Below, piece after piece: positions 2,128 through 46,736 of a stretch of DNA of 64,000 nt; the stretch's first letter is position 1; every line of letters starts with the position of its first letter. The stretch is taken from NCBI GenBank assembly GCA_002720855.1, contig PBIN01000003.1, positions 62,001-126,000 on the forward strand, written 5' to 3'. Position numbers and translations under genes: made by a program. The notes beneath the pieces are model-generated. The model was not told the DNA's origin, did no database searches, and saw only the letters and a list, made by a program, of their open reading frames with translations. The DNA is from Rhodospirillaceae bacterium (GTDB lineage Bacteria > Pseudomonadota > Alphaproteobacteria > MPNO01 > UBA2964).

Positions 2128-3657
2128 ATGGACGTGCACGATTTAGGTTTTGAACACATCAGCATGACGCCAGAGCAAGAACAGGATCTTGCCGAGACGA
2201 TCTGGAAACAGGACAACGTCGAGCTGACGACGGTGGGCGTCGATGTGGGCTCTTCCACATCTCATCTGATGTTCTCAAAGGTCCATTTGCAACGGCTCGC
2301 CGAGGGTCTCTCAAGCCGCTTTGTTGTTGTTAATCGTCAAGTGCTCTGGCGCTCGCCCATTCTTTTAACGCCATATCGTCCTGACTACACAATAGACGCG
2401 GACGAGCTGAAAGAATTTTTTGGCAATGCCTACAAAGAGGCTGAATTAACACCAGAAGATATCGATACCGGTGCCGTTATTTTGACGGGTGAAGCACTGA
2501 AACGAAATAACGCCCGCGCGATTGCCGATCTGTTTGCAGAGGAATCCGGCAAGTTCGTATGCGCTTCGGCAGGGCACAACCTCGAAGCGCTGATGGCGGC
2601 GAATGGCTCCGGCGCCGTTAAGCTTTCCGGTCAGGATCACAAAACGATACTCAACATCGACATTGGCGGCGGCACCATCAAACTTGGTCTGTGCCATGGC
2701 GGTCGACTGCTTGCGACGTCTGCCTTTGCGGTGGGTGGCCGCCTTATCGCCTTTGATGAAGATGGAAAAATGACGCGCATTGAAGGTCCTGCTGAGCAGG
2801 TTGCCGAAGATGTCGGCGTCAAGCTGGAACTCGGCGAAGTTTTATCCAAAGAAGACAGAAAGAAGATCGTCAGCCGAATGGTGGATGTCATTGTTTCTTA
2901 TGCGACGCGCAAGCCGGATGATGATCTCTGCAAAGCGCTTCTGCTAACGGAAAATCTGCCGACGACGCCAGCTATTGACGGGATTACCTTCTCCGGCGGT
3001 GTTTCGGAATATGTATATCGCCGAGAGGAAGAAGATCGGGGCGATCTCGGCCGATCAATCGCTCATGATCTCCGACATGCCTTGGCTGACAAACGCATTC
3101 CCGAAACCGTCTATGACCCTGGTCACGGCATTCGGGCGACCGTTGTAGGTGCGTCGCAATTCACCGTACAGGTAAGCGGGAATACCATCTTCCTATCGGA
3201 AAAAGAAAAACTGCCGGTTCGAAATGTACCTGTCGCGAGCCTGGATATAGACCTTTCCGGTGACTTCACATCCGAAGATGTGTCAACAAAAATTGGCGAA
3301 GCCATGAAACGCCTCGATATGGTTGAAGGTGAAGATCGGGTCGCCATCGCCTTTCGCTGGGGCGGCGACCCGCTTCATGCCCGTCTTTATGCGTTAGCTG
3401 ATGGCATCTGCAAAGGCCTGCCAAAAACCGTGGCCGACCCCGAATTGCCGGTTGTTATTATGATGGACGGCGATGCCGGACGAACCGTCGGGAATATCCT
3501 CGTCAAAGAACTGAATGTTACCGGCGAAGTGATCTCAGTCGACAATGTTCAATTGCGCGATTTCGATTTTGTGGATATCGGCGAGTTTATGCCGGATACG
3601 CAGGTCGTGCCGCTAATTATTAAATCGCTGCTGTTTACCTCCCCGGGTCAGGAGTAA
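2128..3657 (+). CDS. EutA-like ethanolamine ammonia-lyase reactivating factor
   Basis: A 509-residue protein of the EutA family, actin-like ATPases that release damaged B12 from ethanolamine ammonia-lyase. It has the actin-fold phosphate-1 motif GVDVGSSTSHLMFS (37-50) and a second nucleotide-binding segment NIDIGGGTIKLGL (176-188). The length is slightly above the ~470 residues usual for EutA. The ATG follows AAAGGA. No eutB, eutC or other B12 enzyme is in the window; the neighbours are UbiD and a NicO-like metal transporter 9 bases downstream. It may reactivate an enzyme encoded elsewhere or have been recruited to another job. Family fairly sure, role open. Confidence 0.8.
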   Translation: MDVHDLGFEHISMTPEQEQDLAETIWKQDNVELTTVGVDVGSSTSHLMFSKVHLQRLAEGLSSRFVVVNRQVLWRSPILLTPYRPDYTIDADELKEFFGNAYKEAELTPEDIDTGAVILTGEALKRNNARAIADLFAEESGKFVCASAGHNLEALMAANGSGAVKLSGQDHKTILNIDIGGGTIKLGLCHGGRLLATSAFAVGGRLIAFDEDGKMTRIEGPAEQVAEDVGVKLELGEVLSKEDRKKIVSRMVDVIVSYATRKPDDDLCKALLLTENLPTTPAIDGITFSGGVSEYVYRREEEDRGDLGRSIAHDLRHALADKRIPETVYDPGHGIRATVVGASQFTVQVSGNTIFLSEKEKLPVRNVPVASLDIDLSGDFTSEDVSTKIGEAMKRLDMVEGEDRVAIAFRWGGDPLHARLYALADGICKGLPKTVADPELPVVIMMDGDAGRTVGNILVKELNVTGEVISVDNVQLRDFDFVDIGEFMPDTQVVPLIIKSLLFTSPGQE

Positions 3658-3666
3658 GCGACAACC

Positions 3667-4395
3667 ATGACCGCTCTTTCCGTTCTCGCCATTGGCTTTT
3701 TACTTGGTCTCCGTCATACGCTCGACGCCGATCACGTTGCCGCTGTTGCTGCACTGGCGACCCGTTCCAGATCAATTGGCGAAACCATTAAAACCGGTGT
3801 CGCCTGGGGTATTGGGCATACGCTGACGCTGTTCACGGTATGCACCGCCATTATTGTTTCGGGCATCGCTTTTCCCGAACGGATCGTCGGTGTTCTCGAA
3901 TTTCTCGTGGGACTCATTTTGGTCGGGCTTGGTATCGATGTAATCCAGCGAATATTGCGCAAACGCATCCATGTCCATGCGCATTCCCATCGCAATAGCG
4001 GCAGTCATATCCATTTTCACAGCCATGCAGATGAACCCGATCACAATGCATCGGCACATGAGCACGATCATCGCTCTACCCTGCCATCGCGGGCGCTAGC
4101 GATCGGTTTGATGCATGGGCTGGCAGGTTCGGCTGCTTTGCTACTCCTCGCGGTCAGCCAGCAGGTATCGACGACCGAAGCGCTCCTTTACGTTGTCCTG
4201 TTTGGTATAGGCTCGGTCATTGGTATGGGCATTTTATCCGCGGTAATTGCATGGCCCATCATGGCGAGCGCCCGAAAAGGCACTGACGTATTTAAACGGT
4301 TTAACTTCGTTATCGGAACCGGTACAGCCGCGATCGGTTTCTTCGTGATGTTCCATTCTTTGCCAAGCGTCGCGGCGTTGCTGACCAGCCTATAG
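3667..4395 (+). CDS. NicO/NiCoT-like nickel-cobalt transporter (UreH-like)
   Basis: A 242-residue polytopic membrane protein with about six hydrophobic segments. Near the N terminus it carries RHTLDADH (16-23), the His/Asp signature of nickel/cobalt permeases. A cytosolic or periplasmic loop around residues 98-140 is very rich in His (HVHAHSHR, HIHFHSHADE, HEHDHRS), as in metal-handling permeases. It starts 9 bases after the eutA-like gene and is followed by a cupin gene, suggesting one operon. Metal specificity is not certain. Cobalt is attractive given the EutA-like neighbour and a cobalt-type hydratase 17 kb away, but that is inference. Confidence 0.75.
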   Translation: MTALSVLAIGFLLGLRHTLDADHVAAVAALATRSRSIGETIKTGVAWGIGHTLTLFTVCTAIIVSGIAFPERIVGVLEFLVGLILVGLGIDVIQRILRKRIHVHAHSHRNSGSHIHFHSHADEPDHNASAHEHDHRSTLPSRALAIGLMHGLAGSAALLLLAVSQQVSTTEALLYVVLFGIGSVIGMGILSAVIAWPIMASARKGTDVFKRFNFVIGTGTAAIGFFVMFHSLPSVAALLTSL

Positions 4396-16035: not shown

Positions 16036-16152
16036 CATCGGCGTAACAATCAGCTAGACAACCATCTAACTGTTACGGATAAGTCTCTAGCGTCCGTTGC
16101 CGCCCTCCACCGGCTGTAATACAGTCTCCTAAACAAATAATTGGAGGGCAAA

Positions 16153-16860
16153 ATGGCATCTGATTTTGAAGATCATTGTTGGAAAGACGTTGTCTCGGAA
16201 AGTGCGCTGAACATTTACAGACACTACGAACGTAAAACCTATGTTGGCGAAAAACCCGCACTTCTGGCGATAGATCTCTACAAACTTGCCTACCAAGGCG
16301 GCCCCAAACCGGTGGAGGAGTTGGTCGATATTTATCCAAGTTCCTGCGGAGAAAATGCCTGGAACGCCATTCCGCCCACGGAGAGGTTGTTTAAAGCGGC
16401 ACGGGCAGTGGGAATTCCGATCATTTACTCAACGACCGAAACACGTGCTGAAGCCAATATCGCCCATGCCTATGCAACGAACCGCCAGAAAGTTCAGGTG
16501 GCGCCTGATGTCTGGGAAATCAAGGAGGAGTTTGCGCCGCAGGAAGGTGATCTGCTTGTTTACAAACAACGTGCGAGCGCCTTTGCGGGAACACCGCTCG
16601 TGTCTCAGTTAAACCGTTTGGGTGTCGATAGCCTTATCGTGTGTGGCGAGAGCACCAGTGGCTGTGTCCGCGCGAGTGTCGTCGACGGATATTCCAACGG
16701 AATACACGTAACCATCGCCGAAGAATGCGTCTATGACCGGCATATTCTTTCTCACAAGGTCAATCTGTTTGATCTCCACCATAAATATGCCGACGTCATG
16801 CATGTCGATGAAATCGTTGAACATTTATATGACACCGCCGGACTGAAAGAGGCGAGCTGA
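16153..16860 (+). CDS. Isochorismatase-like cysteine hydrolase
   Basis: 235-residue member of the isochorismatase-like hydrolases, which include N-carbamoylsarcosine amidase, maleamate amidohydrolase and nicotinamidase-like enzymes. The triad is visible as D41 (LLAIDLY), K138 (VYKQRASAF) and C171 (GESTSGCVRAS), and the cis-peptide region precedes the Cys as expected. GGAGGG stands just before ATG 16153. The stop overlaps the next start (TGATG), so it is coupled to the polysaccharide-deacetylase-fold gene, which suggests sequential hydrolysis of an amide or cyclic imide. Exact substrate unknown. Confidence 0.85.
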   Translation: MASDFEDHCWKDVVSESALNIYRHYERKTYVGEKPALLAIDLYKLAYQGGPKPVEELVDIYPSSCGENAWNAIPPTERLFKAARAVGIPIIYSTTETRAEANIAHAYATNRQKVQVAPDVWEIKEEFAPQEGDLLVYKQRASAFAGTPLVSQLNRLGVDSLIVCGESTSGCVRASVVDGYSNGIHVTIAEECVYDRHILSHKVNLFDLHHKYADVMHVDEIVEHLYDTAGLKEAS

Positions 16861-17729
16861 TGGAACCCAGTCGTTATGGACCGTTTCCTTACACCCCGAT
16901 CAATCGACGACCCAAACTCAAGTGGCCTAATGGTGCCCGCGTTGCAGTTTGGATAGCGCCCAATCTGGAGTTTTTCCCCCTAGATGAGCCCATTCCGGGC
17001 TCTCGCTATAGCTATACGCCGGAAGTTTCTTCATGGGCGACGCGTGATTATGGCGCCCGGGTCGGCGTGTTTCGGATTATGGACGTCTTATCGAAGCGCA
17101 ATATCAAGGCGACCTGCACGCTCAACTCAGAGGTTTGCGACGCCTATCCGGAAATGATGGAAGATGCCGTTGCGCTGGGTTGGAATTTTATGGGCCACAA
17201 TCAGAGCAATTCCCGGCCCTTTCAGTCGACGCCTCCCGAAAACGATCACGCAATGATTAAGGACGTACTCGCGCGGATTACGGAATGCACGGGAACAAAA
17301 CCGCGCGGCTGGCTGGGATCCGGACTGCAAGAAACATGGGATACATTGGATTATCTCGCAGAAGAAGGGCTGGATTATATCTGCGACTGGACCAATGACG
17401 ATCAACCCTACTTTATGACCGTTGGGGAAAAGAAACTTGTCTCCCTGCCCTATTCGACGGAAATCAACGACCTGCCGCAATTTCGGGCGGGGCGTTCGAA
17501 CGACGAATTTGAAAAAATGATCCGGACACAGTTCGACACGCTCTATGAAGAAGGAGCCGACTCCGGTCGTGTAATGGCAATTTGCCTTCATCCCTTTGTA
17601 ATCGGCGTCTCGCATCGTATCGGTGTGCTCAAATCTGCCCTCGATTATATTCAGGGCCATGATGATGTCTGGTTCGCAACTGCGGAAGAAATTGTCGATG
17701 CCTGGCTGGCATCCGACGCAACTTTTTAA
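16860..17729 (+). CDS. Polysaccharide deacetylase-fold hydrolase (PuuE/allantoinase-like)
   Basis: 289 residues of the NodB-homology/polysaccharide deacetylase superfamily, most like the non-sugar branch that contains PuuE-type allantoinase and related amidohydrolases. Seen: ATRDYGARVGVFRIMDVL, TLNSEVCDAYPE, GHNQSNSRPF and a late ICLHPFVIG with a His likely in the active site. No signal peptide, so cytosolic and unlikely to act on cell-wall sugars. Coupled to the isochorismatase-like gene by a TGATG overlap and followed after 18 bases by a NIPSNAP gene. Confidence 0.8.
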   Translation: MEPSRYGPFPYTPINRRPKLKWPNGARVAVWIAPNLEFFPLDEPIPGSRYSYTPEVSSWATRDYGARVGVFRIMDVLSKRNIKATCTLNSEVCDAYPEMMEDAVALGWNFMGHNQSNSRPFQSTPPENDHAMIKDVLARITECTGTKPRGWLGSGLQETWDTLDYLAEEGLDYICDWTNDDQPYFMTVGEKKLVSLPYSTEINDLPQFRAGRSNDEFEKMIRTQFDTLYEEGADSGRVMAICLHPFVIGVSHRIGVLKSALDYIQGHDDVWFATAEEIVDAWLASDATF

Positions 17730-18071: not shown

Positions 18072-18620
18072 TTAATCTCCAAGCGGTTTTGCGCCGCCCG
18101 GCACTTCGATATCAAAGATATTGAGGGTGATGGCGATCAGATTGTAGTGGCCGAGTAGGCCGGCAAGATCGACTGCGCCCTGTTGTCCATGCCGGTCAAC
18201 AACCTTCTGAAACGTCTCGTCGCTGACGCGATTACTCGCGTAGAGCTCCTTGCTGAACTGGTAAATCTCCTGTTCAGCCGGATTATCGAATGCTGGCTCT
18301 TCGCCAATTCGAATGGCGTCGATCACTTTCTGCGAAACGCCCGCTCTCAATGCCTCACTCTCATGAGCAAACCATTCGTACTGCGCTTTCAAATGGTGGG
18401 CAGTCACGAGGATAGCTATTTCTCTTAAATCCCAGGGGATCGAACATTCATACCGGACGAATTGTCCTAATTTTTGAACTTTATCTGCTAACTCTGGGCT
18501 ATCCAATAACGCCAAAAACGGCCCTCTTACACCACCGCGCGGACCGCCAGCGATGTCGTCATAAACCTTCTGTTGTTCAACTGTCATTTCGTCGCGCGGC
18601 GTTTCAACCAAGCGTGCCAT
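18072..18620 (-). CDS. Carboxymuconolactone decarboxylase family protein
   Basis: 182 residues with the CMD/AhpD helical core (ELADKVQKLGQFVRY, REIAILVTAHH, EWFAHESEALRAG). The redox CxxC of AhpD is absent, so a lyase or binding role is more likely than peroxidase support. GGAG lies upstream of the ATG. It is downstream of the molybdenum hydroxylase gene (29-base gap, same strand) and may end the operon that starts with the nitrile-hydratase-like genes. Confidence 0.85.
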   Translation of the reverse strand: MARLVETPRDEMTVEQQKVYDDIAGGPRGGVRGPFLALLDSPELADKVQKLGQFVRYECSIPWDLREIAILVTAHHLKAQYEWFAHESEALRAGVSQKVIDAIRIGEEPAFDNPAEQEIYQFSKELYASNRVSDETFQKVVDRHGQQGAVDLAGLLGHYNLIAITLNIFDIEVPGGAKPLGD

Positions 18621-18649: not shown

Positions 18650-20983
18650 TCAGCCTGCCTTTTGAATTTGCTCTATCAGATCCGAGGGTGTGATCGGATA
18701 TTTATTGAGTTGCACATTGAAGGGTTCAAGGGCGTTTTCTATGGCTGACAGAATCGACGGCGCCGCTGTCATAACACCGCACTCGCCAACGCCTTTCACA
18801 CCGATGGGGTTACGATCCGTCGCAGATTCTTGATGTATGATTTCGTAATTCGGCACTTCGGGCGCCGTGGGAATCAGATACTCGCCGAGATTTGTCGATT
18901 GCGGCATCGCCTGATCGTCATAAATCATATTCTCGAATAAAGCATGTCCCAACCCAAGCGTAACACCGCCATGAACCTGTCCATCGACAATAATGGGGTT
19001 AATCAACGTGCCGCTATCATGCACGATGACATAGCGATTTATGTGCACATGTCCGGTTCCGATATCGACCTCCAGCTCCGCACCATGCGCGCCGTTCGCA
19101 TAGGCGACATTGTCAGGCATGAAGCTAGATTCAGCCTCCAGGCCGGGTGTGATGCCTTCGGGCAGCGCATAACCAGGGACACCTGCAACGGCTCCGGCAA
19201 TCTGACGGAAATCTACCGACATATCAGGCACTCCTTTAACGAATACCTTGCCGTCGCGTAACTCCAAATCCTCTCCAGACGCTTCCAGAAGATGCGCTGC
19301 TATTGCCAATACCTTTTTGCGTACGGCTGTTGCGGCCAAATGAATAGAAGAGCCAGCACAAACAGTTTGCCGGCTCGCAAAACCGCCAAACCCTTGCGTA
19401 ACGTTCTGAGTATCGCCATGAACAAGAGAGACTTTATCCGGACTAACACCGAGCTGATCGGCAACAATCTGCGACATGGCGGTTTGAAAGCCCTGCCCCA
19501 TAGCAATGCCACCGGTATAGACAGAAATTTTTCCGGACGTACCAATCCGTACGATGCCGGTTTCAAAGGGTCCGCGGCCTGTGGGCTTTACATAATTGGC
19601 CATGCCAAAGCCGAGATAGCGCCCTTCTGCACGGGCACTTTCCTGTCGCGAAGAAAAATTTTCGAAATCCATGGCTTTGAGAAGATCAATCTGACACTTC
19701 TCATAATTGCCGCTGTCATAAATGATCGGCTGCCCAGCCTGTGTTTTTAGGGGGTGCTCATAGGGCATATCTTGCGGTCGGATAAGATTGCGCTCCCGCA
19801 TCACTGTTCGATCAAGCCCGGCGGCATCAGCGATTTTGTCGACCATCCGCTCCATTGTGAAACAACCCTGCGGATGCCCTGCACCACGCATCGAGGTCGA
19901 GGGCACTTTGTTCGTATGGGCAATAACGACGTTCAACGCGTAATTTGGAATAACGTAGGGGCCAAGGATTGTCGTTGCCGCACTGAAAGGGATATTGAAC
20001 CCTCGTGCCGTATAGGCACCCTGGTCATGGTACATTTGGCCACGAAGGCCAAGGATTCTGCCATCGGCATCAGCCGCCATCTCGACATCCCAAAACTGAT
20101 CACGCTCCTGCGTCGTCGTTATGAGATGTTCCCTTCGATCCTCTACAAACTTGATCGGTCGCTCCAGTAGCATCGTAGCAGCGCTGATAACGGCGTCTTC
20201 GGGGTAGAATAGAAGTTTGGGTCCAAATCCGCCGCCAATGTTTGGTACGATTACCCTAATCTGGGACTCATCAAGTCCAAGCAGATAAACGAGCACACTG
20301 CGATGCGAATGTGGCGCCTGGCACGAACTCCACATCGTGAAAGTCTGCCGGATCGGATCATAACGCGCGATGCTGCCGCGACATTCCATCGAGTTCGATA
20401 CACCGCGATGCTGGTATAGTTCCGAAGAGACTACGAATGCAGCATCGGCAAACGCCTTTTCAACATCACCGTGGCCGAACTGAAGGTCATGTACGATGTT
20501 TCCGGGCTCGGTTTGGCGTGAATTTACCGGCGGTGCATCTGGTTCCGCAGCTTTCCTTGGGTCTGAAAGTACCGGCAATGGGTCGTATTCCACCATAACC
20601 AACTGTGCGGCATCTTCTGCGATATAGCGGTTTTCCGCAACAACGGCGGCGACCGGCTCGCCAACGTAACAAACCTCATCGCGGGCAAGAATGTAGGGTC
20701 CGACATCTACGCGTTCACCAGGGTTCGGAAAATTCTCTGGCACGCGTTCCTGTGAAAGAACGGGCAGCAAATCGTCGATGGTAAATACGCCAGCCACACC
20801 GGGAACATCCCTAGCGGCTGATACATCTATCGATGATATTTTTGCATGGGCAACCTGGCTGCGAACTACAGCAAGATGCAACAGGCCTTCCATTTGAATA
20901 TCGTCGATAAATGTTGCCTCGCCCGCCAACAGGGTTTCGTCTTCAAGACGAAGCATTTTTTTGCCGACAAAGGTGTCGGGCAT
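18650..20983 (-). CDS. Molybdenum hydroxylase large subunit (xanthine dehydrogenase/CoxL family), copy 1
   Basis: 777-residue molybdopterin-binding subunit of the xanthine dehydrogenase family. Seen: N-terminal a/b hammerhead domain (DETLLAGEATFIDDI), GGGFGPK (molybdopterin loop), RGAGHPQG near the substrate channel and the catalytic Glu in GVKGVGECG near the C terminus. Such enzymes hydroxylate aldehydes or N-heteroaromatics with water as oxygen source. The usual 2Fe-2S and FAD subunits are not adjacent. It follows the nitrile-hydratase-like alpha gene by 43 bases on the same strand, so hydroxylation and C-N hydration may act on one substrate (inference). Confidence 0.9.
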   Translation of the reverse strand: MPDTFVGKKMLRLEDETLLAGEATFIDDIQMEGLLHLAVVRSQVAHAKISSIDVSAARDVPGVAGVFTIDDLLPVLSQERVPENFPNPGERVDVGPYILARDEVCYVGEPVAAVVAENRYIAEDAAQLVMVEYDPLPVLSDPRKAAEPDAPPVNSRQTEPGNIVHDLQFGHGDVEKAFADAAFVVSSELYQHRGVSNSMECRGSIARYDPIRQTFTMWSSCQAPHSHRSVLVYLLGLDESQIRVIVPNIGGGFGPKLLFYPEDAVISAATMLLERPIKFVEDRREHLITTTQERDQFWDVEMAADADGRILGLRGQMYHDQGAYTARGFNIPFSAATTILGPYVIPNYALNVVIAHTNKVPSTSMRGAGHPQGCFTMERMVDKIADAAGLDRTVMRERNLIRPQDMPYEHPLKTQAGQPIIYDSGNYEKCQIDLLKAMDFENFSSRQESARAEGRYLGFGMANYVKPTGRGPFETGIVRIGTSGKISVYTGGIAMGQGFQTAMSQIVADQLGVSPDKVSLVHGDTQNVTQGFGGFASRQTVCAGSSIHLAATAVRKKVLAIAAHLLEASGEDLELRDGKVFVKGVPDMSVDFRQIAGAVAGVPGYALPEGITPGLEAESSFMPDNVAYANGAHGAELEVDIGTGHVHINRYVIVHDSGTLINPIIVDGQVHGGVTLGLGHALFENMIYDDQAMPQSTNLGEYLIPTAPEVPNYEIIHQESATDRNPIGVKGVGECGVMTAAPSILSAIENALEPFNVQLNKYPITPSDLIEQIQKAG

Positions 20984-21026: not shown

Positions 21027-21683
21027 TCAGGATGCAGTCGGGTTGGATACACCTACCATCGTATCTCTGGTGACTATGGACGCGAGCTGCTCCTCAGTCC
21101 AGTCATCCGTGCCCTCGGGTCTGCGTGGGATTACAAGATAGCGCAAATCAGCCAGACTATCATGGACCCTTACCGTCATGTCATCGGGAACTTCAGTTCC
21201 AAACTCGGACAAAACCTTTCTTGGCTCAATGATGACTCTCGAACGATAACTCTTGCTGCGATACCAATCGGGCGGCATACCAAGCACGGCCCGCGGATAA
21301 CAGGAGCAAAGCGTGCACACCACGACGTTTTGTACGTCGTCGGTATTCTCGACGACCGTCATTTTTGCAGCGCCCGCATCGATATCGAGCTCTGCGAGAG
21401 CAGAATTCCCGTCATCAAGCAGGCGTTGTTTGAACTCTGGGTCAGTCCAGGCTTTCGCGATTACCTTGGCCCCATCGGATTTCTCCAAAGACTCAACTTT
21501 TTCCTGCGCTGCCCGTAACTCTTCAGGTGTCAAATGACCGCGCTCCATAAGAAGTTCCCGCATGGCATAGGTCATTAACTCATACCGGCTTGGGTCTGAA
21601 TCCTCGATATTGGGCTGGAAAGTCAGATCGTGATCGTGGTCGTGATCATGATCGTGCTCATGTGTTCCGCGTTCTTCAGCCAT
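21027..21683 (-). CDS. Nitrile hydratase alpha / thiocyanate hydrolase gamma-like metal subunit
   Basis: 218 residues carrying the metal site CTLCSC (C123, C126, C128), in which Thr rather than Ser at the second place is typical of cobalt(III) enzymes. It ends with the family's RDTMVGV motif. The N terminus is a striking run of alternating His and Asp (residues 8-19), perhaps for metal capture. Start chosen at 21683 because AAAGGAGAG precedes it; an upstream in-frame start at 21725 adds 14 unlikely residues. Encoded 23 bases after the beta-C-like gene. Hydrates nitriles, or hydrolyses thiocyanate in related enzymes. Confidence 0.88.
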   Translation of the reverse strand: MAEERGTHEHDHDHDHDHDLTFQPNIEDSDPSRYELMTYAMRELLMERGHLTPEELRAAQEKVESLEKSDGAKVIAKAWTDPEFKQRLLDDGNSALAELDIDAGAAKMTVVENTDDVQNVVVCTLCSCYPRAVLGMPPDWYRSKSYRSRVIIEPRKVLSEFGTEVPDDMTVRVHDSLADLRYLVIPRRPEGTDDWTEEQLASIVTRDTMVGVSNPTAS

Positions 21684-21706
21684 TTTCTCTCTCCTTTCGT
21701 CCCGAT

Positions 21707-21991
21707 TTATGCGGGTAACAACCAATGTTCGTAAATATCCACATCAACGGTGTCAGTCTCGGGGCCGGAGTAATTTGGCCAGACATGACTTTGTTTGAAC
21801 CGTACACGATAGAGCGTTTTTTTCGGCAAACCGTCAAAACCATAGGCGAGTTCTTCGGGATTAGCGAAATCCCCGCAAACTCGTTCGATCTCCCCGACTT
21901 TGCCACGAATATAAAAAGGTGTGCGCCGATGTCCCGGCGGATGGGTGGCAATGACTTGGACTGCGTCACCTGGTGCGAAACTCCCACTCAT
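21707..21991 (-). CDS. Nitrile hydratase beta C-terminal-domain-like subunit
   Basis: 94 residues equal to the SH3-like C-terminal domain of nitrile hydratase beta, as a separate protein. Typical blocks are GDAVQV, RTPFYIRGKVGEI and LYRVRF, ending DVDIYEHWLLPA. The Arg in the RTPFYIRG segment corresponds to those contacting the oxidised cysteines in known enzymes. Its ATG overlaps the stop of the beta-N-like gene (ATGA), so the two halves are translationally coupled. This split is known from thiocyanate hydrolase and toyocamycin nitrile hydratase. Confidence 0.87.
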   Translation of the reverse strand: MSGSFAPGDAVQVIATHPPGHRRTPFYIRGKVGEIERVCGDFANPEELAYGFDGLPKKTLYRVRFKQSHVWPNYSGPETDTVDVDIYEHWLLPA

Positions 21992-22326
21992 TCTCTTGCC
22001 TCCGCCATACGTTGCTCAATTTCTTTCATACGATCTTCCAGCTCTTCTTCAGTAAACAAACCTTTTTCAACGAGGATTATTTTCATCGACTCTGTGGACC
22101 GTTCGTAATAGTCGAGATCGCTATAGAGGGGCTCACCCATCTGTTCACGGGCACGCCTGGTCTCATCAGTCACATAAATATGCCGACCGGCAGCACCCAA
22201 TGCATTGCTGATCGCTGTAGACATGCGTTCCCACGGTTTCATCTCCGTGGCGTTTGGATCAATAGCACCGTAATCCTTACCGCCAATGTCATGATAACCC
22301 CGGCGCGGATCGTCTGTATCTGCCAT
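21988..22326 (-). CDS. Nitrile hydratase beta N-terminal-domain-like subunit
   Basis: 112 residues matching the helical N-terminal domain of nitrile hydratase beta / thiocyanate hydrolase beta. The family opening HDIGG is near residue 11, followed by MKPWERMSTAISNAL. Start chosen at 22326 after GGGAGG; the frame stays open upstream without homology. First gene of the three-subunit operon (beta-N, beta-C, alpha), then the molybdenum hydroxylase. No activator (P15K or P14K-like) gene is visible next to it. Confidence 0.85.
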   Translation of the reverse strand: MADTDDPRRGYHDIGGKDYGAIDPNATEMKPWERMSTAISNALGAAGRHIYVTDETRRAREQMGEPLYSDLDYYERSTESMKIILVEKGLFTEEELEDRMKEIEQRMAEARE

Positions 22327-22454: not shown

Positions 22455-23324
22455 ATGGATGGCAGCATTTATCGCAGCTACGACCAGGAAACGCTAAATA
22501 AACTTTATGACAATCGAAACCGCTTCCCCGATACCGACGAACGCAAGGCTGCCCAGTCAAAAGGTTCCGACGAAGCTAAGGCTGATTATGAATGCCGCCT
22601 AGATATCAGGTACGGTGACGGGGACGCGGATGTTCTCGATATATATTTAGCCGACGGGAATGGACCGCATCCTGTCCACGTGTTCTTTCACGGCGGATAT
22701 TGGAAATCGAACACCAAAGATGATTTTGGATTTGCTGCCAAGCCGTTCGTCCCCTATGGAATTACAACGGTTGTGGCCGAATATCCCTTAATACCTTCAG
22801 TGCGCATGGACACGCTGATCGATCGCTGTCGTGCTTCATTGGAATGGACATGGCGCAATGCGGAGCGTTTCGGCGGCGACCAGAACAACATCACGATTTC
22901 GGGGCACTCCGCGGGCGGTCACATCACAGCCATGATGATGCAAACTGACTGGCCGTCATACGGTGAGGGATTACCAAAAGACCTGATAAAAGGCGGCTGC
23001 AGTATTAGTGGCGTCAGTGACCTGGAACCGGTCAGACTTTCTTCCCAAAATGACGACATGCAACTTGGGGAGAAGGAAGCGGCTGATTTTAGTCCGCTGT
23101 TTATGGACCCGATCCATCCCGGCCCCCTGCTTGCAGTTGCAGGCAATTTGGAAGGCGACGAGTTCGTAAGACAAACTTCTGATCTGGCGGAAGCCTGGTC
23201 CGCAAAAGGGATGAACGTCGAGTGTTGGATCATGGAAGAGAAACACCATTTTACGACAATAAATCAATATCTTGACCCCGAAAGCGAGCTATCCAGCGCT
23301 GTTCGGGGTTTGGCAGGGAAATAG
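22455..23324 (+). CDS. Alpha/beta hydrolase (kynurenine formamidase / BD-FAE-like)
   Basis: 289-residue alpha/beta hydrolase. The oxyanion-hole motif HGGYW (~78-82) and nucleophile elbow GHSAGGH (~153-159) match arylformamidase-like and small esterase families; an Asp and a late His (KHHFTTI) complete a probable triad. No signal peptide. Divergent from the nitrile-hydratase-like operon and followed after 20 bases by a substrate-binding-fold protein. Formamidase or amidase chemistry would fit, but the substrate is unknown. Confidence 0.85.
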   Translation: MDGSIYRSYDQETLNKLYDNRNRFPDTDERKAAQSKGSDEAKADYECRLDIRYGDGDADVLDIYLADGNGPHPVHVFFHGGYWKSNTKDDFGFAAKPFVPYGITTVVAEYPLIPSVRMDTLIDRCRASLEWTWRNAERFGGDQNNITISGHSAGGHITAMMMQTDWPSYGEGLPKDLIKGGCSISGVSDLEPVRLSSQNDDMQLGEKEAADFSPLFMDPIHPGPLLAVAGNLEGDEFVRQTSDLAEAWSAKGMNVECWIMEEKHHFTTINQYLDPESELSSAVRGLAGK

Positions 23325-23344: not shown

Positions 23345-24256
23345 ATGATCACTTTTAAGGTTGGCGAGGCTTCGCCCGCGAATACGTTTTTTGCAATTTG
23401 GATGGCGGAAGCAGCCGGTCTTTACAAAGATAACGGCCTCGATTTTGAAATTGTCAAAATGGTGGGCGGCAGCGAAACGGGTCCGGCGCTGTCATCGGAT
23501 CGTATCCAATTAATGCATATTGGTATGTCGTCCGTCGTCAGAGCCAATTCTGCTGGATTCGATGTGACAACTATCGGCTCACTGAGCAATGTCATCCGCA
23601 GCACGCTCTTCGCTGCGCCGGGCGTTGGCAGCATTGATGATGTCAAAGGCGGCGATGTTGGAATAAGCAGTGCTGGCTCGGAAAGTGAGCTCTCGACCGT
23701 CGTCGCGCTCCAGAAACTGGGACTGACTCGCGACGACATTACTTTTCGCGAAATTGGTGTCGAGAGGCTTTCTCATCTCAAAAACGGAACCGTCAAGGCA
23801 ACCATGCTAGGCGAACCTCTCCGCAGCGTGGCATTGGGCGAAGATATGAAAGTTCTATGCGATTTGTTGGTGGACCGAATGCCATGGCTATACAGCGGCC
23901 TCGTCGTCGACAAGTCATATTTGGCAGACAACCGTGACGCTGTTCTTCGGTTTATGCGCGCGACTGTTGAAGCCAATTATCTTGCAGTGGCTGACGCGGA
24001 ACGCGCGAAACCGGTGATGGCGGAGGTTCTCGAGATCACAGACCCAAAAAATCTCGATATCACGTATGACAACTTCAAGACTTATACGCCCTTAAACGCT
24101 GAACCTACCGTTGAAGGTGGCAAAAACATTATGGGAACAGTCGAGGCCGAGAATAAAAGCGACAATATTGACGATTATATGGATCAGTCAGTCCATGAGG
24201 AATTGTTAGATAGCGGCTTTTTCGACGAGATGAAGGTGAAATACAACGTCGGTTAA
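23345..24256 (+). CDS. Substrate-binding-protein-fold protein (NMT1/SsuA-like) without signal peptide
   Basis: 303 residues resembling ABC substrate-binding proteins of the NMT1/SsuA type (ANTFFAIWMAEAAGLYKDNGLDFEIV, then MHIGMSSVVRANSAG). It begins MITFKVGEA with no signal peptide or lipobox, so by sequence it is cytosolic. No ABC permease or ATPase gene is nearby. Together with the two dihydroxyphthalate-decarboxylase-like proteins it makes three signal-less proteins of this fold in the window, which argues for an enzymatic or sensing role rather than import. Converges on cbtA. Confidence 0.75.
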   Translation: MITFKVGEASPANTFFAIWMAEAAGLYKDNGLDFEIVKMVGGSETGPALSSDRIQLMHIGMSSVVRANSAGFDVTTIGSLSNVIRSTLFAAPGVGSIDDVKGGDVGISSAGSESELSTVVALQKLGLTRDDITFREIGVERLSHLKNGTVKATMLGEPLRSVALGEDMKVLCDLLVDRMPWLYSGLVVDKSYLADNRDAVLRFMRATVEANYLAVADAERAKPVMAEVLEITDPKNLDITYDNFKTYTPLNAEPTVEGGKNIMGTVEAENKSDNIDDYMDQSVHEELLDSGFFDEMKVKYNVG

Positions 24257-24278: not shown

Positions 24279-25007
24279 TCAGCTTCGTTCTTCGAACCAC
24301 TGCCAGAACGTCCCTGATAACCAACCGAGCATTGCCCAGAAAATTGCGGCTGTAACCATAGACGCAGCAGCAAAATGTCCGGCAATTTCCGGAGGCACAT
24401 TCCCCCCGATACGCGCTGGTTGCGGCGCACCGATAATGTGAGGTAATGCCATCAAGACAATACCGGCTATTACCCAAACAGCTCCCTTCCGGAAGACCAG
24501 TAGCCATAGCCCAGCCGCCGTCGCTGCAACGCATAGAACCCACCAGCCTTGTCGCGGTGCAAGTTCGGCCGCGAGTGCGCCTGGAACTTCAGGGGGTAAG
24601 CCCAAGGCTGGCGCCAGAGATATCACACCGAATCCGGCCATACCCCAAATAACCCCCACCCGACCGTCGATGGTTCCGGTACTCAGGGAATAACAAGCAA
24701 CCAGAATTAGGGAGAAACCTATTCCCAATAATATATTTGCAAGAGTTGTGGAGAACGTTCGTTCCCAACCATCCGCAGGGCCCCAGGCCTCATGTTCATC
24801 CTTTGCATCACCGCCGCTCTTGCCATGGGCCAATATCAATAAAGGATTTTTATACGCACTTTGCTTTTGGCCATCAGCAGCAGGTTGTCCTTCAAACTGC
24901 TCCGCATGCAGAATGATTGGCGTTGTCGTGAATTCATGGACAACGGAAATTCCGAGACCGGCAAAAAATCCGGCAAGAAGCGCTGTCGCAAAAATACGCC
25001 GAAACAT
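24279..25007 (-). CDS. cbtA: Cobalt transporter CbtA
   Basis: 242-residue membrane protein of the CbtA family, with about five hydrophobic segments. It begins MFRRIFATALLAGFFAG and has a His-containing periplasmic stretch near residues 60-75. Encoded 16 bases after cbtB, the standard partner. CbtAB is a predicted cobalt uptake system, often B12-regulated. Its closeness to a cobalt-type hydratase operon is suggestive of metal supply. Confidence 0.88.
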   Translation of the reverse strand: MFRRIFATALLAGFFAGLGISVVHEFTTTPIILHAEQFEGQPAADGQKQSAYKNPLLILAHGKSGGDAKDEHEAWGPADGWERTFSTTLANILLGIGFSLILVACYSLSTGTIDGRVGVIWGMAGFGVISLAPALGLPPEVPGALAAELAPRQGWWVLCVAATAAGLWLLVFRKGAVWVIAGIVLMALPHIIGAPQPARIGGNVPPEIAGHFAAASMVTAAIFWAMLGWLSGTFWQWFEERS

Positions 25008-38603: not shown

Positions 38604-38716
38604 ATCCTTTATCTCCCAACCGCAACCATCGCGTGACAAAACCTTAAAAATCAAAACTTACATCGTCAACCTGCCGCCAGTTGCCCAGCACCAGTCCAAA
38701 CTCTACGCTAAACGCC

Positions 38717-41044
38717 ATGTCAAAGAGCATCGGCCAACCTATCGTCCGCAATGAAGATCTACGCCTGATCACGGGCACAGGAGAGTTTAGCGACGACCGG
38801 AATCAGGATGGGCAAGCCTATGCCGCCATGCTGCGGTCGCCGCATGCGCACGCCATCATTGAGAATATTGACCGGGCTGTCGCCGAAACAATGCCGGGCG
38901 TCCTGTTGGTAATGACGGGCGAGGACTGGCAGAAAACTGGACTGCCACCCTTACAAAACAACCCGATCCCCAGCGCCAAAACAGACCCCACTCTTTTTGC
39001 CCCGGACGGCGGACTGCCCCATGTCCGGGAACAATACCCCCTGCCATTGAACCGTGTTCATATTACTGGCGAGGCTGTAGCGATGGTCGTTGCTGAAACC
39101 GCCGGACAAGCACGCGATGCCGCCGAAGCAATAGAGATCACCTATAATCCGCTTGGCGCAAATGCATATTCTTCCAAGGCCGAAGACGCAGCTCTCCTGT
39201 GGGACGATCTGGAGAAAAATCTTTGCGTCGACAGCAACCTCGGCGACCCTAGCGCCGTGGATCAGGCCTTCGAGGCGGCAGATCACGTTGTCGATCTTGC
39301 GGTTCACGTCGCGCGCGTGACCGGCGTCCCAATGGAACCGCGTGCCGCACTGGCGACGTATGACAAAGAACAGGATAGCTACGCACTCTATGCAGGCGGC
39401 GGCGGTGCGCTCCGTCATCGAACGGAGTTGGCGAAGCTGGCCGGCGTGCCGGATGAACGAATGCGTGTCATATGCGGTGATGTCGGCGGCAATTATGGAA
39501 CCCGCAATCGCGTTTATCCTGAATTTCCACTTGTCCTGCTCGCGGCGAAAATTTTGGGTCGACCGGTCAAGTGGACCGCCGATCGTACGGAATGCATGTT
39601 GAGCGACCTGCAAGGACGCGACTTGACGAGTGCCTTGTCCCTTGCGCTCGACAAGGAAGGTAGATTCCTCGCTCTACGTGGTCAAAACACGAGTAACACG
39701 GGAGGCTACACGGTCGCTTATGCGCCGTTGTCCAAGGGTGCAGGTATCGCAACCGGGCCGTACGATATCCAACCGGCAACACTTCGACTTAAGGCTGTCG
39801 TCACTAATACACCGCCGACCAACCCGTATCGCAGCGCGGGACGCCCGGAATGTGTCTTTGCGCTCGAAAGAATTATCGATACCGCTGCGCGGGAGCTTGG
39901 ATTTGACCGCGTCGAGTTACGTCGCAAGAACCTGATCCAGCCTGATCAGCTTCCGTATGAGAACCCCCAGGGTATGCTCTATGACAGCGGGGAATTCGAA
40001 CGCGCGCTCGATATCGCTCTCAAAGAAGCTGATTACGCGAATTTTGACCAACGCCGCGATGCTACAGAATCTACAGGAATGAAACGCGGCATCGGTATTG
40101 CACCCTATATTGAAACCTCCTCGGGTGCGCCAATGGAATGGTCCAGTGTTAGTGTACTGCCGAATGGTGTGAACGTTGCTGTTGGGACTCAATCGAGCGG
40201 ACAGGGACACGAAACGAGCTTCGCTCAGGTCGCGGCCGACTGGCTCGGTATCCCCTTTAACAAAGTCCTCATTCAACAGGGCAACACGGATGTCGCAAAA
40301 GCAGGTAATGGATCACATGCGGGGCGCTCGATGCGCATGGCCGGCACCGCAATTGTTCTTGCCTCCAACCAGGTCATCGAAAAAGGCAAGGTACTGGCAT
40401 CTTTCGTTCTGGAAACAGCAATTGAAGATATCGAATTTGCCGACGGTGAGTTCCGAATTCAGGGAACCGATCGCGCAATTGACTGGTTCGCGCTGGCCGG
40501 CGAAGCAGAACGCGATGATTTGCCTGATGACCTTAAGGGCGGACTCAACGCCGAGCTCAAGAACGTCATGCATGAGGCAGTATTTCCAAATGGTTGTCAT
40601 GTATGTGAGGTCGTGGTCGACCCCGAAACGGGTACTGTAGTCTTGGAGCGTTACACGGCGGTTGACGATGTAGGACGTGTCATTAACCCGCTAATTGTCG
40701 ACGGGCAGATTCACGGCGGCATCGTCCAGGGCGCCGGTCAGGCCTTGATGGAACGCTGTTTTTTTGATGAGGAAACCGCGCAACCCTATGCCGGATCGTT
40801 CATGGATTATGCCATGCCCCGCGCCAGCGACATGCCGTCATTTTCTGTCACCTATCATGAGGTGCTGAGCCCGCAGAATCCGCTAGGAGTAAAATCCGGC
40901 GGTGAAAGCGGTACGACACCCGCACCAGCCGTCATCATCAATGCTGTGGTTGATGCGCTTTACGATCTTGGGGTCAGAGATATCGAGATGCCGGCCTCGC
41001 CGCACCGTGTGTGGCAAGCAATTCAAGACGCAACGACAAACTGA
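38717..41044 (+). CDS. Molybdenum hydroxylase large subunit (xanthine dehydrogenase/CoxL family), copy 2
   Basis: 775 residues: RNEDLRLITGTGEFSDDRN, GGNYGTRN, YRSAGRPECVFALER and catalytic Glu in VKSGGESGTTPAPA. More similar to copy 3 (42747-45080) than to copy 1; both have YGTRN where copy 1 has FGPKL. No FAD or FeS subunit gene adjoins it. ATG 38717 has no strong ribosome site; a TTG at 38681 is in frame but less likely. It faces the convergent crotonase gene with three bases between stops. Confidence 0.9.
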   Translation: MSKSIGQPIVRNEDLRLITGTGEFSDDRNQDGQAYAAMLRSPHAHAIIENIDRAVAETMPGVLLVMTGEDWQKTGLPPLQNNPIPSAKTDPTLFAPDGGLPHVREQYPLPLNRVHITGEAVAMVVAETAGQARDAAEAIEITYNPLGANAYSSKAEDAALLWDDLEKNLCVDSNLGDPSAVDQAFEAADHVVDLAVHVARVTGVPMEPRAALATYDKEQDSYALYAGGGGALRHRTELAKLAGVPDERMRVICGDVGGNYGTRNRVYPEFPLVLLAAKILGRPVKWTADRTECMLSDLQGRDLTSALSLALDKEGRFLALRGQNTSNTGGYTVAYAPLSKGAGIATGPYDIQPATLRLKAVVTNTPPTNPYRSAGRPECVFALERIIDTAARELGFDRVELRRKNLIQPDQLPYENPQGMLYDSGEFERALDIALKEADYANFDQRRDATESTGMKRGIGIAPYIETSSGAPMEWSSVSVLPNGVNVAVGTQSSGQGHETSFAQVAADWLGIPFNKVLIQQGNTDVAKAGNGSHAGRSMRMAGTAIVLASNQVIEKGKVLASFVLETAIEDIEFADGEFRIQGTDRAIDWFALAGEAERDDLPDDLKGGLNAELKNVMHEAVFPNGCHVCEVVVDPETGTVVLERYTAVDDVGRVINPLIVDGQIHGGIVQGAGQALMERCFFDEETAQPYAGSFMDYAMPRASDMPSFSVTYHEVLSPQNPLGVKSGGESGTTPAPAVIINAVVDALYDLGVRDIEMPASPHRVWQAIQDATTN

Positions 41045-42746: not shown

Positions 42747-45080
42747 TCAGGGCTCCGCACCATGGATTAATCTCCAAATTTTTTGCGGCGTCGCAGGCAT
42801 ATCGATATGGGTCACGCCAAACTCGGTTAATGCATCAACAATCGCGTTTATCAATGCCGGCGGTGCCGCCGTAGTGCCGCCTTCGCCACCACCTTTAACA
42901 CCAAGGAACGTATTCGTTGCCGGTACGACATTATTCTCCGTCACGAAAAAGGGCACTTCATCAGCACGGGGCATATAGTAATCCATAAACGAACCGGCGA
43001 GCAGCTGCCCACTCTCGGGGTCGTATATACAGTCCTCGCCCAATGCTTGGCCAACACCTTGAACGGTCGCGCCATGGCACTGGCCATCGACGATCATTGG
43101 ATTGATAACGCGGCCGACGTCATCGACCCCGGCGTAGCGTAAAATTTTTACCGCGCCGGTATCGCGATCAACTTCGACTTCGCACGCGTGGCAGCCATTG
43201 GGATAAGTCGGCAAGGAATCGTTGATTTCCGCCACCGCTTTTAACGGACCAGACAGATCATCGGGCAAATCTTCGCTCGCCGCCGCTGCCGCAGCATCAA
43301 AGATATGCAGTGCACGATCCGTACCCTCGATACAAAAACGGCCATCCTTAAAGATAATGTCACGTACTGATGCTTCGAGTGCAAATGCGGCGATTTCTTT
43401 TCCGCGCGCTATTATTTCGTCAGTGGTTTGCCGATATAAATGACCCGCCAGTCGCATTGAACGCGAGGAGTGAGAGCCAGACCCCTTCGATACAAACTGG
43501 GTATCGCCGGTTCGCAATATGACACAGTCGAACGGCACCCCAAGCCACTCAGACACGACCTGGGCATAGGTGGTTTCGTGGCTTTGACCCGAAGATTGTG
43601 TTCCAAGAATAATGTCCACCCTGCCGCCCGGCAGAATTTCCATCTCGGCACGTTCCTGAGGATAACCCGTCGCGGTCTCAATGTAATTTGCAAGACCAAT
43701 GCCGAGTAAACGGCCCTCACTCTTGGCGGCGCGCTGTCGTGCAGAAAACCCATCCCAGTCGACCAGTTCCATCGCACGCTCCATACTGAGCGCGAACCGG
43801 CCGCTGTCATAGGTGACGTCGAACGCATTTGTATAAGGCAGGGCAATGTCAGGAATCATATTGCGCTTGCGTAGCGAAATTCGGTCGAAGCCTGTTTGCT
43901 GGGCGGCGATATCGACCAGCCGCTCAATCACAAACATCGACTCCGGACGTCCCGCACCTCGATAGCTTGCTGTCGCAGTGGTATTGGTGAGAACACCCTG
44001 AGATACCGCGTAACCCATCGGTATGTCATAGACACCGTTATAAACCGTTGGCCCTCGTGCCAGTGGCACGTACGAAACTGTGTGGGTGCCAAGATTTGCA
44101 ATGTTTTCGGTTTTTAGCGCAAGGAATTTGCCATTCTCGTCAACCGCCAGACGAGCACGTGTCACCAGATCGCGTCCTGCATAATCACTTAGGAACGCCT
44201 CCGACCGATCACAGACCCACTTTACCGGCTTACCAACGCGTTTCGCCGCCCAGAGGACGAGTGCAAATTCGGGATAGGTATGGTTGCGGGTACCGTAGCC
44301 GCCACCGACGTCACGGGAGATCACGTGCATCTGGCTCGGCTCTACGCCAAACGTTGCTGACAACTCATTACGAAAACGAATGACACCCTGCCCGCCTGCT
44401 TCAAGCATATAAGAGTCTGAATCGACATCGTATTCACCAAGCGCGGCACGCGGCTCCATCGGAACACCGGTCACGCGCTGATTGAAGGTATCAAGCTTCA
44501 CAATGTGAGCAGCCGTGGCAAAGACCATATCGCAGGCGTCTTCGTCACCCTTTACATCATCAACGCTTAAGTTCTGCGGAACCTCATCCCAAAGTTCAGG
44601 CGCACCATCTTCCATCGCCGACACACCATCAGTGACGTTGCCGAGAACCTTACAGTCGATATCAATCGCCTCTGCGGCATCTCGGGCCTGCGCTTCCGTT
44701 TCAGCAACCACGACCGCGACGACCTCACCGGCACGGCGAATTCGATCAACTGCAACAGGGTGAAGGGGCGTGTAAAAAATGTCAGAACCATCGCGATTAC
44801 TAAGTTCAACGTCCTTGGGGTTTCCCCACGCAGGCATTGGGTTGAGCCGGTCACTACGCCAATCGGTTCCGGTCAAAACTTCCAGGACACCCGGTGCGGC
44901 GCGGGCTTCATCGACATTCACACCGAAAAGTTCAGCATGCGCATGCGGCGAACGTACCATCACCGCATAAACTTGATCTGGGCGGCTGATGTCATCGCTA
45001 TATTGGCCCTGGCCTGTCAACAAGCGTCGGTCTTCCACTCGCGGAAGTGCTGCACCTATTCCGGTTGCGACAGCTGACAC
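42747..45080 (-). CDS. Molybdenum hydroxylase large subunit (xanthine dehydrogenase/CoxL family), copy 3
   Basis: 777 residues, start GTG three bases after the UbiD stop. RVEDRRLLTGQGQYSDDI, GGGYGTRN, YRGAGRPESMFVIER and catalytic Glu in VKGGGEGGTTAAPP. Close relative of copy 2. It lacks small and FAD subunit genes nearby. Sits between ubiD-like and VOC genes in one operon, pointing to hydroxylation next to decarboxylation and ring cleavage. Confidence 0.9.
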   Translation of the reverse strand: MSAVATGIGAALPRVEDRRLLTGQGQYSDDISRPDQVYAVMVRSPHAHAELFGVNVDEARAAPGVLEVLTGTDWRSDRLNPMPAWGNPKDVELSNRDGSDIFYTPLHPVAVDRIRRAGEVVAVVVAETEAQARDAAEAIDIDCKVLGNVTDGVSAMEDGAPELWDEVPQNLSVDDVKGDEDACDMVFATAAHIVKLDTFNQRVTGVPMEPRAALGEYDVDSDSYMLEAGGQGVIRFRNELSATFGVEPSQMHVISRDVGGGYGTRNHTYPEFALVLWAAKRVGKPVKWVCDRSEAFLSDYAGRDLVTRARLAVDENGKFLALKTENIANLGTHTVSYVPLARGPTVYNGVYDIPMGYAVSQGVLTNTTATASYRGAGRPESMFVIERLVDIAAQQTGFDRISLRKRNMIPDIALPYTNAFDVTYDSGRFALSMERAMELVDWDGFSARQRAAKSEGRLLGIGLANYIETATGYPQERAEMEILPGGRVDIILGTQSSGQSHETTYAQVVSEWLGVPFDCVILRTGDTQFVSKGSGSHSSRSMRLAGHLYRQTTDEIIARGKEIAAFALEASVRDIIFKDGRFCIEGTDRALHIFDAAAAAASEDLPDDLSGPLKAVAEINDSLPTYPNGCHACEVEVDRDTGAVKILRYAGVDDVGRVINPMIVDGQCHGATVQGVGQALGEDCIYDPESGQLLAGSFMDYYMPRADEVPFFVTENNVVPATNTFLGVKGGGEGGTTAAPPALINAIVDALTEFGVTHIDMPATPQKIWRLIHGAEP

Positions 45081-45083
45081 TGT

Positions 45084-46736
45084 TTATTTGTCCTCGAACG
45101 GGTTGCCGGGAATGTCTCTTATCGAGGTGTTTGGAAAAACATCGTTACGGCGAAGTTGAGCACTGCGGCGTCCGTTCTCCATGTAATTTCCCTCGGCGGC
45201 TCGTTTCGCCATTTCATCCCATTCATCAGCCCAATCGCCAAGCGAGTATCCGTGCCAGGGAGACTCAGGTGCCAATGGCGGCAAGCCGAGGTCATCCCAA
45301 AGTGCAGCGGCCTGTTCCATATATTCTTTTTTGGGCAACGCTATGGGCGGCATATCTGATTTCAGCGTCGCATCGATGAGCAAAGTTGACTCTTCACCGT
45401 TGACCGTACGTGGGTCCTTTGGGCCATATCGAACCCGATGTTTGAGAATTTGCACGTCGAGCGCAGGATTGGCGCGATAGGCCAGCGCCCAAAATACGGC
45501 ATCGCCATTAGTCGGATCGATATCTTCATTTACGGCAACGACATATTTTCCGATTGCGGCAGCCAATGACGATGCTCCATACAAAGCGCGCCAGATCTCT
45601 GTGGTCGGCAAGCCGCGCTCCACCTGAACGAAAAGGACTTTTCGAAGATTGGTCAGCGGCTCATGCAAATAGACTTTCTTGATTCCTTTGATGCCCAGGC
45701 TATCGCGAAGATGAGAAAGATAGAGAGGTTCATAGGCAACACGCTTGATGACGCTCGATTCTGACGGCGTAAGTTGGGAAATGATTGATGTAAATACAGC
45801 GTCTTTGCGATGGGTAATTGCTGTCACCTCCATCGAGGCATTGTAATCTTCCAGAGCCACATGGCCGTGACTTTCAGCAAACGGCGCTTCTGGCTCGAGA
45901 TATTCGGTATCGATAAACCCCTCAACGACCAATTCGGACTCGGCCGGGATCATAATATCAACGGTTTTACATTTGACCTGTTGAATGGGCTCGCCGGCGA
46001 CGCCTCCGGCGACTGCCATTTCCTCAACACCGACCGGCAGCTTTTGCGGCCCCATATAGGCGACAGCTGGAGGACAACCGACGACGATCGCGCAGGGCAT
46101 TTTCTCGCCGCGCTTCTTGTACAGCTCCCAATGCATGTGACCTTCAGCACCGCCGGGTCGCGACACCATACGGACGGCCATGCGGTCAGACGCCTTGAGG
46201 CCGGCGCGGTAGGTTCCCATGTTTTGAGTACCGGTTTCGGGATTCCGCGTCGTTACATTGGTCGCTGTCAAATAGGGCGCGCTGTCATAGCCCGGCGTTG
46301 AAATTGGCACAGGCAACCCATCTAACCCCTTACCCTCGCCCTGAAGGTCATCGCCTGTCAAAACGACTTCATGGCAAACACCGGCTTCAACCGTCACCGG
46401 GTCGATCGGATTGGCCATGGCGTCGTTCCATTTACCACCAATTTCCTCAACCGGCACTCCCATTCCAACCGAATACATCTCCGCATTGGTGGACAATGCT
46501 CCAACGACGACAGGCATGTCATACGAACGCCCAAGACTGTCCGTCACATTTGTGAACTTGAACGCCTTGCGTTCTTCTTCGGGAATTCCACCACGAAACT
46601 GCCATCGGACCAACGGATGCAGTTCCGTGTCTTTATTTACCGGTGCATCGATTGTTGTCAGCAACCCGGTGTCATCGAGCTTCCTTAAATGCTCGTGAAA
46701 GTCTGGATAACCCCCGTTATTTGCCGCGCCGGCCAT
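45084..46736 (-). CDS. UbiD family decarboxylase, divergent
   Basis: 550 residues, longer than the copy at 575-2053. TQNMGTYRAG matches the N-x-G-x-YR element, and SELVVEGFID supplies a Glu. The usual EGPFGE stretch is changed to EAPFAESHGH, so the active-site environment differs from classic UbiD. The C-terminal ~60 residues are extra and charged. First gene of the operon with a molybdenum hydroxylase, VOC protein and crotonase; GAGAGGG before the ATG. prFMN dependence is expected but not provable. Confidence 0.87.
   Translation of the reverse strand: MAGAANNGGYPDFHEHLRKLDDTGLLTTIDAPVNKDTELHPLVRWQFRGGIPEEERKAFKFTNVTDSLGRSYDMPVVVGALSTNAEMYSVGMGVPVEEIGGKWNDAMANPIDPVTVEAGVCHEVVLTGDDLQGEGKGLDGLPVPISTPGYDSAPYLTATNVTTRNPETGTQNMGTYRAGLKASDRMAVRMVSRPGGAEGHMHWELYKKRGEKMPCAIVVGCPPAVAYMGPQKLPVGVEEMAVAGGVAGEPIQQVKCKTVDIMIPAESELVVEGFIDTEYLEPEAPFAESHGHVALEDYNASMEVTAITHRKDAVFTSIISQLTPSESSVIKRVAYEPLYLSHLRDSLGIKGIKKVYLHEPLTNLRKVLFVQVERGLPTTEIWRALYGASSLAAAIGKYVVAVNEDIDPTNGDAVFWALAYRANPALDVQILKHRVRYGPKDPRTVNGEESTLLIDATLKSDMPPIALPKKEYMEQAAALWDDLGLPPLAPESPWHGYSLGDWADEWDEMAKRAAEGNYMENGRRSAQLRRNDVFPNTSIRDIPGNPFEDK

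Follow-up and report, generated by a model that had tools for sequence, protein, structure and literature searches.

Streptomyces canus CGMCC 13662 possesses a three-subunit hydratase, AnhDEA, encoded in the order beta-N, beta-C, alpha by a genome that has no activator; the enzyme has a cobalt-type metal motif and matures without an activator by insertion of cobalt under reducing conditions, with the beta-N subunit AnhD serving as a metal and self-subunit-swapping chaperone by way of an AnhD2A complex (PMC7329996; see also PMC11573777). The thiocyanate hydrolase (SCNase) of Thiobacillus thioparus (PDB 2DD4) likewise consists of three chains with a split beta subunit, and has the motif CTLCSCYPR and a His-Asp-rich alpha N-terminus. 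Ordinary cobalt nitrile hydratases (NHases), such as those of Pseudomonas putida (3QXE) and Pseudonocardia thermophila (1IRE), have a single-chain beta subunit, usually an activator gene, and Trp after CTLCSCYP. The toyocamycin NHase of Streptomyces rimosus, ToyJKL, is by description also a three-subunit cobalt hydratase, but it belongs to nucleoside antibiotic biosynthesis.

The window, meaning the whole 64,000-nucleotide stretch of DNA analysed here, encodes beta-N, beta-C and alpha subunits of the NHase superfamily in that order on the minus strand, from 22326 to 21027 (Table 1), with start codons picked by Shine-Dalgarno sequences read from the sequence and a 4-nt overlap between beta-N and beta-C. 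Profile scores support the subunit identities given in the original prediction, and the relation that it drew to the split of SCNase and toyocamycin hydratase holds; the window beta-N is the counterpart of both the N-terminal half of NHase beta and SCNase beta. Sequence comparison indicates that the locus is genuine and well conserved and that it encodes a cobalt hydratase of three chains, of an activator-free kind already known; elsewhere in the genome it is accompanied by an unusual second locus.

Table 1. Features of the hydratase operon and its surroundings in the window
Feature	Position	Strand	Evidence and remarks
Beta-N subunit, AnhD-like, 112 aa	21988..22326	-	PF21006, 63.9 bits (cut-off 21.5); ATG start at 22326 with GGGAGG upstream
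Beta-C subunit, AnhE-like SH3-like domain, 94 aa	21707..21991	-	PF02211, 72.6 bits (cut-off 27.7); ATG start at 21991 with GGAGG upstream
Alpha (metal) subunit, 218 aa	21027..21683	-	PF02979, 258.8 bits (cut-off 27.2); ATG start at 21683, Shine-Dalgarno AAAGGAGAG
His/Asp-rich alpha N-terminal tail HEHDHDHDHDHD	21627..21662	-	Unstructured in the model
CTLCSC cobalt-binding motif, alpha Cys123-Cys128	21300..21317	-	Read from sequence; invariant in alignment
Alpha Arg131 codon in CTLCSCYP-R	21291..21293	-	Position of SCNase gammaR136 / NHase alphaW116
Molybdenum hydroxylase large subunit, xanthine-dehydrogenase family	18650..20983	-	PF20256/PF02738/PF01315; starts 43 nt after alpha
Carboxymuconolactone-decarboxylase-like protein	18072..18620	-	PF02627; last gene of presumed operon; kept in 7 relatives
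Polysaccharide-deacetylase-like hydrolase	16860-17729	+	PF01522; candidate amide/ring hydrolase
Isochorismatase-fold hydrolase	16141-16860	+	PF00857; candidate amide/ring hydrolase
Divergent alpha/beta hydrolase	22455..23324	+	PF20434/PF07859; kept in 9 relatives
NMT1-type substrate-binding protein	23345..24256	+	PF09084
CbtA cobalt transporter subunit	24279..25007	-	TIGR02458, 234 bits (cut-off 183)

Beta-N and beta-C followed by alpha, without a trailing activator, are kept in about 90 distinct relatives, so the arrangement is not a frameshift artefact, and recurrence of the same ORFs across dozens of genomes rules out an error of assembly as well. When 385 genomes of the class were searched with the window beta-C, about 70 of them, in many families, yielded about 80 free-standing beta-C matches of 43-70% identity; ordinary beta chains in the same search have about 35-40% identity and group apart. 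The split had been called uncommon, a description that does not fit the roughly 18% of genomes, in a sample drawn across families of the class, that have a free-standing beta-C. A search with a beta-C alignment gave strong matches in 18 of 346 genomes of Actinomycetota, and in 1 of 321 genomes in the class of a Paraburkholderia locus. The activator-free three-gene lineage is more widespread in Alphaproteobacteria than generally noted: it is common there, yet it has been characterised experimentally in very few strains, and its free-standing beta-C genes carry, in part, only the NCBI annotation 'SH3-like domain-containing protein'. An earlier study (PMC3323583) set aside a 'truncated' beta subunit of Roseobacter CCS2; this protein may belong to the lineage as a beta-N or beta-C that stands alone.

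Placement among nitrile hydratases and thiocyanate hydrolases

In an alpha tree of 57 rows, a subset drawn after the 142-row tree had been seen and from which eight mostly long-branch rows were left out, the window alpha lies outside three clades that each have 100/100 support: ordinary NHases, SCNases (including PDB 2dd4_C and a closely similar gene in L238) and actinobacterial split alphas. It joins its own order (96/91) within the alphaproteobacterial split set, and the 142-row tree has the same outline. The beta-N tree separates ordinary beta-N sequences and activators from split beta-N, SCNase beta-N and SCNase activators (SH-aLRT 99) and nests the SCNases within the split lineage, their exact position calling for caution because the branches are long. 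Neither alpha nor beta-N falls firmly inside the SCNases, an outcome on which the original prediction had depended. The window alpha scores 245 bits with TIGR01323 (cut-off 249.85) and 217.5 bits with the SCNase model TIGR03887 (cut-off 291), and it has no counterpart of the insertion that precedes the metal site in SCNases (SPPTQFGTPSDYC).

The cobalt-type CTLCSC of the original prediction is present in alpha, within VCTLCSCYPR. With classes assigned following the tree, the position that follows CTLCSCYP is occupied by Arg in 65 of 71 split alphas, in all 13 actinobacterial split alphas and in SCNases, and by Trp or Phe in 50 of 50 ordinary NHases. Entry titles in the PDB describe a reciprocal pair of mutants, R136W of SCNase (3VYG) and alphaW116R of NHase (3VYH); because nearly the whole lineage has the Arg swapped in these mutants, it constitutes a natural test set for substrate choice, activator-free cobalt loading and the origin of SCNase. 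Split alphas mostly have VHDS in place of VWDS, mostly lack the Gln that ordinary NHases have at one alignment column (Gln90 region), and have HxHxH or HHH in the N-terminal tail more often than ordinary alphas do (63/70 versus 21/47). By alignment, beta-C retains the arginines of GHxRTPxYxRGK, and beta-N retains that of ExxRR. The window beta-N has Ser in place of the YYExW Trp that is kept in 52 of 62 split beta-Ns and in all six SCNase beta-Ns; this loss counts against assignment to the AnhDEA type and against SCNase function alike.

The residue after CTLCSCYP also bears on whether the window encodes an ordinary NHase with a recently broken beta gene and an activator elsewhere. Independent beta splits do exist among ordinary NHases that keep their activator (L078, L226, L227, L229, L231), but those enzymes retain Trp after CTLCSCYP (9/9) and are placed by the tree with ordinary NHases, whereas the window genes belong to the Arg lineage and the genome yields no activator. 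The Arg/Trp signature follows lineage, not beta splitting. Although the window enzyme shares with ordinary cobalt NHases the fold, the cysteine motif and the beta arginine motifs, it has neither their alpha clade, their fused beta and TIGR03889 activator, nor their Trp; we regard a recent break as hardly credible and have rejected it on signature and tree. The five secondarily split loci named above are arranged alpha, beta-N, beta-C, activator; L163, another Trp-signature NHase locus with an independently split beta, ends in a gene for a beta-like fusion.

The window shares with SCNases the split beta, the CYPR arginine at the position of gammaR136 and His-Asp repeats at the alpha N-terminus. 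An AlphaFold model of alpha (pLDDT 86.7) lies 1.3 Å rmsd from SCNase gamma (2dd4_C) and about 3 Å from many NHase alpha chains, the TM-scores being similar; the beta-N model finds its best fold match, with modest E-values, in SCNase beta (2dd4_H/B). The split lineage is best classed as related to SCNase, yet the window enzyme not as an SCNase, since it lies outside the clade, lacks the insertion and falls below the TIGR03887 cut-off; membership of the SCNases proper was rejected on the first two of these. A divergent, activator-free enzyme that nevertheless functions as a thiocyanate hydrolase, converting SCN- to COS and ammonia, is unlikely: an activator-like gene lies next to those of the identified SCNases, which is not so in the window, and the surroundings of the window operon resemble organic catabolism, not sulfur oxidation. 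With its SCNase-like Arg and the loss of the Gln90 region, the enzyme could conceivably act on thiocyanate or another small anion.

No gene exceeded the cut-off when 398 genomes of the phylum were searched with the SCNase gamma model, so SCNase references were taken from genomes that the beta-C alignment had picked out. In four actinobacterial members of the SCNase clade (L017, L188, L216, L218) beta is a fused chain and an activator-like gene lies next to the locus; the split is thus not universal in that clade.

Activator-free maturation and a second locus

Among the loci fetched for comparison, ordinary NHases mostly consist of alpha, fused beta and activator. The original prediction noted the lack of an adjacent activator, and the observation extends to the whole genome (98% complete), in which a search with TIGR03889 returned nothing over the cut-off and a search with PF21006 returned two beta-N genes and a weak match within alpha, and nothing else; an activator concealed elsewhere in the genome was discarded on these results. 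Gene order and the lack of a recognisable activator are thus those of S. canus AnhDEA. The likeness rests on these two features and on a Streptomyces proxy, locus L253 of Streptomyces sp. NBC_01176, compared for gene order and signature residues; S. canus belongs to another phylum. By analogy, the window enzyme would mature by an AnhDEA-like route. Neither the split beta nor activator-free maturation is new, because the AnhDEA design has already been characterised in S. canus; the earlier suggestion that the maturation route may be new therefore has to be withdrawn, such a three-subunit route having been demonstrated there (PMC7329996).

A second alpha and a second beta-N, without beta-C, occur in the same genome (L003:8524-9495, corresponding to G000:C14:624523-625494) and had escaped the original prediction. 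Their neighbours encode DHDPS, a cupin, MarR and UbiD, in an order that matches the four-gene locus L011 of the same taxonomic order, and from this gene order a loss of beta-C at the second locus is most likely. A beta-N and alpha pair recurs in another genus (L175); compared with it, the second locus has pN of 0.19 and 0.26 against pS of 0.78, so that nonsynonymous change is far below synonymous change. Six loci (L011, L106, L164, L170, L172, L181) have four genes, beta-N1, beta-N2, beta-C and alpha, in which the two beta-Ns are diverged paralogues and N1 mostly lacks the YYExW Trp. The window beta-N joins N1 (95/94), and its replacement of that Trp is common to the N1 group; the second-locus beta-N keeps the Trp and resembles N2, a grouping that the AU test does not reject (p 0.115). 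Complementary loss from a four-gene ancestor, giving N1, C and A in the window and an N2-like gene and A in the second locus, is plausible from these sequences. A more tentative idea, which we consider possible but doubtful, is that the ancestral operon was divided into the window operon, with a molybdenum hydroxylase, and the second locus, with UbiD, and that the pair without beta-C is a working unit, either a mediator dedicated to loading cobalt into the three-chain enzyme or a hydratase that works with a borrowed beta-C. The report that the ToyJKL alpha subunit is active alone (Nelp et al. 2014, cited by PMC7329996) bears on this pair.

The AnhD2A complex, which loads cobalt, likewise consists of beta-N and alpha; this, with the His-rich tail and a cobalt transporter nearby, could suggest that the window genes form a cobalt-handling or accessory module for neighbouring enzymes instead of a hydratase. 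Such a module is very unlikely in view of what dozens of lineages conserve: the cysteines of the active site, the two beta arginine motifs and the beta-C that forms the pocket.

Genomic context and proposed function

The operon is probably that of an activator-free, AnhDEA-type cobalt hydratase built from three chains (beta-N, beta-C, alpha), with beta-N as chaperone and a polar or N-heteroaromatic nitrile as substrate. We infer its metal, assembly and maturation as follows: alpha would bind low-spin Co(III) by backbone amides and three cysteines, of which two are oxidised; beta-N and beta-C would between them reconstitute a single beta chain of the NHase type and contribute its pair of active-site arginines; and beta-N would most likely act in addition as the cobalt and self-subunit-swapping chaperone, a role proposed because an activator is absent and AnhD of S. 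canus provides a precedent. The alpha tail, unstructured in the model (pLDDT <50), may be a cobalt-gathering arm that, together with the nearby CbtA transporter, would help cobalt loading. Supply of cobalt is supported by the presence of CbtA near the operon in four relatives (L009, L104, L177, L179) and of a HoxN-type nickel/cobalt transporter alongside beta-N, beta-C and alpha, in that order, at a Streptomyces plasmid locus. The CbtA gene of the window had been missed in the original prediction.

In nine loci of the same family the gene directly downstream of alpha, in the same orientation, is that of the molybdenum hydroxylase large subunit, whose linkage had been pointed out from the start, and the isochorismatase-fold and deacetylase-like genes are linked to the operon in 8-11 relatives. 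Linkage to this hydroxylase and to hydrolases suggests a catabolic route for a nitrile by way of its amide: the substrate would most likely be hydrated to the amide, which the co-encoded hydroxylase and hydrolases may then process. In the text of PMC7329996 covered here, no linkage to a molybdenum hydroxylase and CbtA is described for S. canus. A context conserved across the class was not found; the hydroxylase link is family-wide, and the UbiD/cupin link is mostly confined to the organism's own order. The window has no gene for a [2Fe-2S] partner (PF01799) of the hydroxylase; 12 such genes are present elsewhere in the genome. Amidase genes adjoin the three-gene locus of Agrobacterium rubi.

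Inspection of the sequence elsewhere in the window reveals two more xanthine-dehydrogenase-like large-subunit ORFs, at 38681-41044 and 42747-45080, for which the window likewise encodes no [2Fe-2S] subunit. Genes for UbiD-family decarboxylases, a family that also flanks the second hydratase locus, lie at 575-2053 and 45084-46736, and an EutA-like gene (2128-4395) adjoins a gene for a NicO-type nickel/cobalt transporter.
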